Source of the DNA: Acinetobacter sp.
GTDB lineage: Bacteria > Pseudomonadota > Gammaproteobacteria > Pseudomonadales > Moraxellaceae
Reading direction: 5' to 3'
NCBI GenBank assembly: GCA_008017255.1
Contig: SSHD01000004.1
Coordinates: forward strand, 1-11,819
Length of the DNA stretch: 11,819 bases
In this document: piece after piece, positions 10,497 through 11,749 of the stretch
How the letters are laid out: each line of letters opens with the position of its first letter
Numbering within the stretch: the stretch's first letter is position 1
Made by a program: the position numbers and the translations under genes
Notes under the pieces: generated by a model
Databases searched by the model: none
What the model saw: the letters and a program-made list of their open reading frames with translations, nothing else
What the model was told of the DNA's origin: nothing

Positions 10497-10551
10497 TAGT
10501 TTGGCATTCCACCTGAGAAGTGTACTTCGCAGGGGTGGAACGAGACAATAG
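10497..10551 (+). repeat. Palindromic repeat, copy A
   Basis: The left arm TAGTTTGGCATTCCACC and right arm GGTGGAACGAGACAATAG are shared, in opposite orientation, with the copy near 11391-11430. TTCCACC pairs with GGTGGAA. Between them TGAGAAGT and ACTTCGCA pair with one A-G mismatch, giving a long hairpin with a two-base bulge. It lies between the last cassette gene and its terminator. It looks like a dispersed REP-type element, but the copy number in the genome cannot be seen here. Confidence 0.7.
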
Positions 10552-10556
10552 AAGTT

Positions 10557-10871
10557 TTAAGGAGAAAATACTATTGTCTTAAATAATACCTTATCTTTTT
10601 TATCTAAGTAAACATGTCCAAATTTAACTACTCCTAAGCGATAAATGCGCACCTTATTACATCTTAAAAGCTCTTTTTTTGATATACCCTCAATCTCTCC
10701 TAGGGGACAATTATCAGTTTGAAAAGTAGCACTAATTAAATCGTCTAACTGCTCAACTGTCATGGACAATTCAACTTTATCAAAAGATTTCTCCAAGTAA
10801 GTGTACCGAAGAAATTGATAAACAAAAAATATAAGAATTAATGATACTCCTAAAACTAGCCATTTTTTCAT
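10557..10871 (-). CDS. Small membrane-anchored protein, possible immunity partner
   Basis: The 104-residue product starts MKKWLVLGVSLILIFFVYQF, an uncleaved membrane anchor, and then a soluble part of about 80 residues. VELSMTVEQLDDLISATF resembles the first helix of BamE/SmpA-like small domains, and KFGHVYLDKKDKVLFKTIVF resembles their closing beta hairpin; this is a weak fold-level impression only. Two cysteines (in DNCPLG and LLRCNK) could form a disulfide if the domain is periplasmic. I chose the ATG at 10871 because AAGGTG lies 6-8 bases before it and overlaps the stop codon of the upstream gene; a GTG at 10880 would add three residues but has no ribosome binding site. Tight coupling to the preceding gene suggests joint expression. 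An immunity role is inference from position and membrane anchoring. Confidence 0.72.
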   Translation of the reverse strand: MKKWLVLGVSLILIFFVYQFLRYTYLEKSFDKVELSMTVEQLDDLISATFQTDNCPLGEIEGISKKELLRCNKVRIYRLGVVKFGHVYLDKKDKVLFKTIVFSP

Positions 10872-10876
10872 CTTTA

Positions 10877-11359
10877 TCACCTTGGATTAAATTCGTAAAG
10901 TTCTTGAGGTGGCGTTTTAGATCCTTGCGGAATGCTATAAACTTTGGGTGTATAGAAATATTTTAATTGTAAATAAATATCATTAGGTAATCCTGTATCT
11001 AAGAGTGTAAATCCAGCTTGTTTAAACCCTTCTGCTGATCTATGAGCGCAGCTATCAGGCCAAGTACTAGTAAGAATTGAAGTTGGAAAGCTTGACCAAT
11101 AACTTAAAGCAGCCTGATCCTGTGCTTTGCTTGTATTATTAAATACTAAAACTGTCGTGTCTCTTTTTTGAGCTTGATTTAACAAATAGTCTGAAAAGGA
11201 TGATCCTAAGGGTGTTGAATTGCCAAAGCTATATACGCCTGCCCCAGTAGTAGACGTAGCAGAATGACCAAAAGGACTGGTTTTCGTCCAACCATTCATC
11301 ACGAAAGCAATACCTTGCCCCGTCACATTACTCAATTCATAATCAGAAAGCTCTCTCAT
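10877..11359 (-). CDS. Protein with class II microcin-like leader and unassigned C-terminal domain
   Basis: From the ATG at 11359 the 160-residue product opens MRELSDYELSNVTGQG. This matches the pattern of double-glycine export leaders (LSxxELxxVxGG) at every key position except the final Gly, which is Gln, and recalls the MRELxxxELxxV start of class II microcins. After a hydrophobic patch (IAFVMNGW), the domain shows GHSATS (His32), VYSFGNSTPLG, a basic-hydrophobic RDTTVLVFNN strand and DSCAHRSAEGFKQAGF (Cys104). A His early and a Cys late would suit a permuted papain-like (NlpC/P60 or LRAT type) hydrolase, but this is inference. There is no Sec signal peptide. The frame stays open upstream to a TTG at 11518, but that extension reads straight through a palindromic repeat and a 16-base palindrome. 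No good ribosome binding site precedes the ATG, so the start is not settled. Confidence 0.65.
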   Translation of the reverse strand: MRELSDYELSNVTGQGIAFVMNGWTKTSPFGHSATSTTGAGVYSFGNSTPLGSSFSDYLLNQAQKRDTTVLVFNNTSKAQDQAALSYWSSFPTSILTSTWPDSCAHRSAEGFKQAGFTLLDTGLPNDIYLQLKYFYTPKVYSIPQGSKTPPQELYEFNPR

Positions 11360-11375
11360 TGATAGTGAATTATTT

Positions 11376-11391
11376 AACAGATTAATCTGTT
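11376..11391. promoter_or_regulatory. Perfect 16-base palindrome, operator-like
   Basis: AACAGATTAATCTGTT is its own reverse complement and lies 16 bases upstream of the ATG at 11359, next to the palindromic repeat. Its size and symmetry fit a dimeric repressor site, but no regulator gene is nearby. Confidence 0.4.
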
Positions 11392-11430
11392 GCCTCGTTC
11401 CACCGCTGTGCGGTGGAATGCCAAACTGGT
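11391..11430 (-). repeat. Palindromic repeat, copy B (inverted relative to copy A)
   Basis: On the minus strand it reads AGTTTGGCATTCCACC, a short GCACAGC centre, then GGTGGAACGAGGCAACAG. The arms match copy A at 10497-10551 with only a few differences, but the centre is shorter. TTCCACCGC and GCGGTGGAA form a 9-bp hairpin with a TGT loop. It lies in the 5' leader of the microcin-leader gene. Confidence 0.7.
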
Positions 11431-11624: not shown

Positions 11625-11635
11625 AGTATTTAAAA

Positions 11636-11749
11636 GCTGGCGATGACTTACTCTCACATGGCAAACGCCACACTACCATCAGCGCGAAGAGGTTTCACTT
11701 CTGAGTTCGGGAAGGGATCAGGTGGTTCACTCTTGCTATTGTCGCCAGC
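11636..11749 (-). rRNA. rrf: 5S ribosomal RNA
   Basis: Read on the minus strand, GCTGGCGACAATAGC at the 5' end pairs with GTCATCGCCAGC at the 3' end as helix I. The conserved core includes CCACCTGATCCCTTCCCGAA, CTCAGAAGTGAAAC and GATGGTAGTGTGG. The length of about 114 bases fits Acinetobacter-type 5S rRNA; the exact ends may differ by a base or two. It is the last gene of an rRNA operon that continues beyond the window. Confidence 0.96.

Follow-up and report, generated by a model that had tools for sequence, protein, structure and literature searches.

The minus strand of an 11,819-nucleotide stretch of an Acinetobacter sp. genome (contig SSHD01000004.1 of assembly GCA_008017255.1; hereafter the window) carries two adjoining open reading frames, ORF1 (10877..11359, 160 amino acids) and ORF2 (10557..10871, 104 amino acids), which probably form an orphan toxin-immunity module of the Rhs type. 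As judged from sequence comparisons, ORF1 would consist of an Rhs C-terminal-type toxin domain behind a 15-residue start resembling that of FilA/DUF6160 proteins, with ORF2 as putative immunity gene and with repetitive extragenic palindromic (REP) elements on either side of the pair, whose 5' end may have been truncated. A first-pass annotation had instead read the start of ORF1 as a class II microcin leader that directs export by a C39 peptidase-containing ATP-binding cassette (ABC) transporter.

The ORF1-ORF2 pair and its Rhs-linked relatives

Both minus-strand frames are present as first annotated, with five bases between the ORF1 stop and the ORF2 ATG, and the ribosome-binding site of ORF2 (CCAAGGTGAT) indeed overlaps this stop, forming a duplex of -9.9 kcal/mol with the 16S rRNA tail. 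The ATG of ORF1 has no such site (-1.1 kcal/mol vs -6.2 kcal/mol for cysM), a point missing from the first-pass annotation. Its protein product, P0001, begins with MRELSDYELSNVTGQGIAF, contains the motifs FGHS (residues 30-33) and DSC (residues 102-104), and has no signal peptide, with a best 10-residue hydropathy of 0.96 compared to at least 2.02 in the 26 proteins sharing its start motif.

The toxin character suggested by the first-pass annotation is supported by homology to Rhs C-terminal domains. While a single-sequence search with ORF1 yielded two database proteins, its own cluster included, a five-sequence profile retrieved 81 proteins of 0.55-1.75 times the query length, mostly Rhs tails, and 61 of these carry an Rhs-type DPxG under a loose pattern. 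Among 175 genomes of the genus, the domain was found in two besides its own: in G082 it ends a 1,400-residue Rhs protein (L149/L003) with signal-peptide-like start, DUF6531 and Rhs repeats, in which PAAR was not found (Pfam, E 0.01), and in G021 it is located on an Rhs remnant. In a Stenotrophomonas contig, the domain belongs to an Rhs frame, and an ankyrin protein is encoded next to it, downstream. The domain is thus C-terminal to an Rhs core in relatives (L149/L003, L005, and many of the 81 homologues), and an Rhs part is absent beside ORF1 in the window. In the alignment, NVTG/QGIAFVMNG of ORF1 stands opposite DPLG/LATAVIFNG of the Rhs-type relatives; the toxin domain therefore starts where Rhs toxins usually start, and the first 14-15 residues of ORF1 are foreign to it. 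We thus envisage that the domain was excised at the DPxG boundary from an Rhs setting. The G082 copy and its small membrane gene (L149 1951-7951) lie in prophage-like surroundings, with a UmuC-like gene on one side and, on the other, genes that resemble phage Rz/Rz1 and endolysin as read from the sequences.

A different architecture is seen in 22 of the 81 homologues, short proteins in which a Sec signal peptide and a short Rhs tail precede the toxin domain (24 were called by a hydrophobicity rule, and P0010 and P0031 were removed as false calls). This suggests Sec-exported Rhs-tail toxins; P0009, P0012, P0013, P0041, P0050, P0066, and P0077 are among them. Homologues without a microcin-like leader, which the first-pass annotation had named as evidence against its own reading, therefore exist and bear Rhs tails or Sec signal peptides instead.

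The predicted structure of ORF1 is papain-like with permuted order, of the TseH type, and the proposed catalytic His precedes the Cys, in agreement with the permuted papain-like hydrolase that had been proposed. The His and Cys of the GHS and DSC motifs highlighted at that stage are conserved: in a recount over all 82 rows, His32 (11264..11266, minus strand) is kept in 77/77 rows with a residue and Cys104 (11048..11050, minus strand) in 79/80, the sole exception (P0081) diverging upstream of that position. ORF1 would accordingly have the fold of a known type of envelope-attacking toxin and may be an enzyme with a lipid target. A search of solved structures with alignment A5 (P0001 plus 55 of the 81 homologues, the other 26 being omitted, several as fragments or for failing the Cys pattern) was set aside, matching Rhs tails alone owing to the tails within the alignment.

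As first annotated, ORF2 looks the way immunity proteins usually do, being a small membrane protein encoded downstream. Its predicted membrane helix (residues 4-20; 10812..10862, minus strand) is a hydrophobic stretch in the sequence and falls within helix 2-29 of a low-confidence model (pLDDT 55.7) that was too poor for fold identification by structure search, which we dropped. The one relative in the protein database, P0086, is 69% identical and keeps both Cys residues. The domain copies in G082 and G021 are each followed by a mutually related 86-residue protein with an N-terminal hydrophobic helix, and at all four loci that show a gene downstream of the domain (L002, L003, L005, and the window), its product has a membrane helix or lipobox-like start. 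These four proteins are of three unrelated kinds, so that ORF1 homologues do not constantly co-occur with an ORF2-type gene as the first-pass annotation had asked, but their common membrane or lipobox features fit a periplasm-acting toxin. ORF2 would then be a membrane-anchored, periplasm-facing immunity protein.

The own genome was the only one among 369 found in a class-wide search with alignment A1, and pattern searches gave 18 matches in genome contigs, of which one was confirmed, and 43 in viral contigs, of which none was. With tblastn, no phage record matched the pair at E better than 2 and plasmids yielded one convincing partial match, a Pseudomonas aeruginosa fragment adjoining IS630, an outcome on which we rejected a phage or plasmid origin. 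In the own genome, neither the type VI secretion system (T6SS; VipB) nor Rhs repeats were found; since this genome is 65% complete, this and all other absences from it carry little weight.

The amino-terminal motif of ORF1 and C39 peptidases

The start motif of ORF1 (MRELSDYELSNVTGQ; residues 1-15, 11315..11359, minus strand) is modelled with a mean pLDDT of 60 over residues 1-10. A 16-residue search of 173 Acinetobacter genomes found it at 26 places in 25 genomes besides the own, with individually weak matches (E from 0.13 to 3.5), and in 26/26 it follows a Sec signal peptide (Met, basic residue, hydropathy of at least 2.02). These matches include many near-identical orthologues, and 14 distinct 15-mers were used for comparison. 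When the Pfam family DUF6160 was tested on two of the motif proteins, one scored above and one below the cut-off, and ORF1 itself gave no match. The earlier suspicion that LSDxELSxVTGQ-like starts belong to a wider Acinetobacter family is supported, this being the motif of DUF6160/FilA-type proteins. No DNA donor of the leader could be named: at E up to 1, 138/173 genomes matched, yet beyond the window these were short stretches at noise level (best E 0.0019).

As a contrast set, we used 18 stretches around Acinetobacter C39-type genes, mostly ABC transporters; in 12 of these stretches, a small gene has a ribosome-binding site and encodes a double-glycine-type leader. The 12 leaders end in GA (9), GG (2), or GS (1) and never in the final Gln of ORF1, though the search pattern permitted Q, while nine of the 14 distinct Sec-type motifs share this GQ ending. 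Asp6 and Ser10 of ORF1 are likewise found in 14/14 Sec-type motifs but in 0/12 and 1/12 microcin-type leaders, respectively. That a C39-ABC transporter exports ORF1 by means of a class II microcin-type leader is therefore very unlikely in our estimation. The MREL start of ORF1 (including Arg2), its lack of a signal peptide, and its overall similarity in pattern to genuine leaders of the genus, e.g., MRELSIYELNLVSGA in L050, do speak for such export, and the 17/173 genomes with strong ABC-type C39 matches include G021 and G082, the bearers of the Rhs-linked relatives. However, ORF1 has no ribosome-binding site and, at 160 residues, exceeds the 75-120 given for verified class II microcin precursors in PMC9746304. 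The transporter postulated elsewhere in the genome did not come to light either: no C39 domain of ABC or FilB type was found in the own genome (65% complete) and, among the matches listed, no strong ABC-type one in nine relatives with CysM at least 90% identical. A microcin transporter probably does not export ORF1 in its present form.

C39 domains as such occur in 161/173 genomes and, apart from those with strong ABC-type matches, mostly in FilB-like frames of about 280 residues. In 4/4 stretches inspected (L141-L144; G037, G046, G040, and G141), a standalone C39 gene follows a gene whose product opens with a signal peptide plus MQSMDDAALSAATGQDG or a comparable sequence, and the one pair tested was named FilA and FilB by NCBIfam. 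FilB keeps the surroundings of the C39 Cys, His, and Asp and is similar to FapD, a periplasmic C39 peptidase whose target is called unclear and whose recognition sequence is called possibly different in PMC5557850. Among the matches listed, 81 of 90 DUF6160 proteins of moderate length are in genomes with a listed C39, and 73 of these 81, in 73/78 genomes, lie within 3 kb of it. From this arrangement, we propose that FilB may recognise the GQ motif carried by FilA/DUF6160 proteins.

By extension, an intact relative of ORF1 whose motif is preceded by a signal peptide could be exported by Sec and cut at GQ by FilB, which would free a functional toxin. The FilA-type motif at the mature N-terminus beside FilB and the 22 homologues that combine Sec signal peptide, short Rhs tail, and toxin domain are in line with this scenario. 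We nevertheless consider it unlikely, given the missing signal peptide of ORF1, the failure to find DUF6160 or a FilB-type C39 in the incomplete own genome, and that cutting at GQ by FilB was not found described in the literature searched. It is similarly improbable that ORF1 represents a polymorphic-toxin domain on a C39-readable GQ tag more generally, to be freed either by a C39-ABC transporter or by FilB, the latter in intact relatives once Sec has exported the protein. If true, this would amount to modular delivery of Rhs toxin domains without Rhs shell or T6SS, and non-ABC C39 peptidases would then recognise their targets by the GQ motif of FilA/DUF6160 proteins.

REP elements and the variable 5S rRNA-cysM interval

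Inverted copies of a dispersed palindrome of 31 to 44 bases bracket the pair, one 12 bases beyond the ORF2 stop (10501..10544, plus strand) and the other 34 bases upstream of the ORF1 ATG (11394..11424, minus strand). Eight copies are present in five stretches of the own genome, and none was found in the other loci compared at the same stringency. We assign these repeats to the REPs because an inverted pair in L077 (contig C152 of the own genome) flanks a REP-associated tyrosine transposase (RAYT; NF047646). In all, L077 (1831-3626) has three copies, which flank the transposase gene and, in the interval next to it, a gene for a 305-residue membrane protein preceded by an open frame apparently truncated at the REP. 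An assignment of the flanking repeats as C4 antisense RNA was not supported by Rfam. Between the right REP and the ORF1 start lies a perfect palindrome (AACAGATTAATCTGTT; 11376-11391), possibly an operator or a product of chance.

The segment 10389..11583, which contains the pair and both repeats, is unmatched at 29 cysM loci (28 in other Acinetobacter plus L140; blastn, E up to 1e-3), and relatives share DNA with the window solely on either side of it. Its right border is marked by the 5S rRNA gene (11635..11749, minus strand; Rfam RF00001, 94 bits). In nine relatives in which the 5S-cysM interval could be placed, it measures about 126 bases in two and 0.8-1.3 kb in the rest, where it holds genes for acetyltransferase or uncharacterised ones, so that this spot is variable in content and length. 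The difference is one between Acinetobacter species (L112-L114, L118-L122, and L124). Elsewhere in the window, a sensor histidine kinase is apparently split into two frames (491-1492 and 1561-1968).

ORF1 has a REP just upstream and neither signal peptide nor ribosome-binding site. It might be a gene fragment that is not expressed, with ORF2 persisting as an orphan immunity gene against incoming Rhs toxins. Although the good ribosome-binding site of ORF2, the REPs at both ends, and the REP-abutted, truncated-looking frame beside a membrane-protein gene in L077 would suit this idea, it seems a doubtful alternative to us, as the ORF1 frame is intact with every conserved position present and translation of ORF2 is coupled to it. 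We rather favor an orphan Rhs-type module in which the excised domain was joined to a short FilA/DUF6160-type GQ motif that normally follows a Sec signal peptide; as it stands, ORF1 may be poorly expressed and possibly 5'-truncated, kept together with its immunity gene.

Several results weigh against this interpretation. P0001 has no family match in Pfam, NCBIfam, or PADLOC, Foldseek alone gave no match for ORF1 at E 0.001 or better, and Lnb_N matched 8/56 members of A5 with a best E of 0.0016, below or near usual significance, and not P0001. The start motif scores 39.9 bits in a position-specific scoring matrix of the Sec-type set vs 22.2 bits in that of the microcin-type set, but this gap is inflated because the former set was gathered by similarity to the ORF1 16-mer. 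ORF2 has no recognisable relationship to the genes that follow other domain copies. No intact gene with signal peptide, motif, and ORF1-type toxin was found, and for this reason we infer rather than observe the 5' truncation. Finally, the second cluster member, P0003, is laid out alike upstream, differing by a single change within the REP, and the layout has therefore been stable for at least that long.

Related systems and significance

Tox-Act1/Imm-Act1, a Salmonella T6SS effector-immunity pair (PMC12994826), resembles the ORF1-ORF2 pair in its permuted NlpC/P60 type with His before Cys, a membrane-associated immunity protein (putative for ORF2) encoded downstream, and possibly a link to DUF4105/Lnb. 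By contrast, Tox-Act1 is secreted by a T6SS, whereas ORF1 is an orphan that starts like FilA and has Rhs tails as relatives. TseH of Vibrio cholerae (VCA0285, PDB 6v98), also a T6SS effector, matches the fold of ORF1 yet shares 10% sequence identity, and its structure entry is not Rhs-linked, unlike the relatives of ORF1. Orphan Rhs C-terminal toxin-immunity modules likewise start at the DPxG boundary and have a small gene next to them, though ORF1 keeps no Rhs remnant and has the GQ motif in its place. DUF6160/FilA proteins (PF19657, NF050077) share LSDxxLSxxTGQ with ORF1, but in them this motif stands between a Sec signal peptide and a beta-rich surface protein, and ORF1 misses the Pfam model. 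Like our pair, class II microcins such as Mcc17978 of A. baumannii (PMC10333792) have an MREL-type start without signal peptide and an adjacent small membrane gene, while ORF1 differs by GQ instead of GG/GA, a larger enzymatic-type domain, and no transporter locus alongside. A combination like that of ORF1 was not found described in the literature searched on leaders with large toxins, DUF6160, REPIN/RAYT with toxins, or FilA/FilB, which is no proof of its absence.

The pair adds an uncatalogued group of Rhs-linked toxin domains similar to TseH and Tox-Act1, in which some members appear to be short Sec-exported proteins and one has been set loose from the Rhs shell between REP elements. Beyond this, the FilA motif beside FilB offers a candidate recognition sequence for periplasmic C39 peptidases, for which the FapD substrate is described as unclear in PMC5557850. 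This by-product of our analysis may matter more than the toxin-immunity pair itself.
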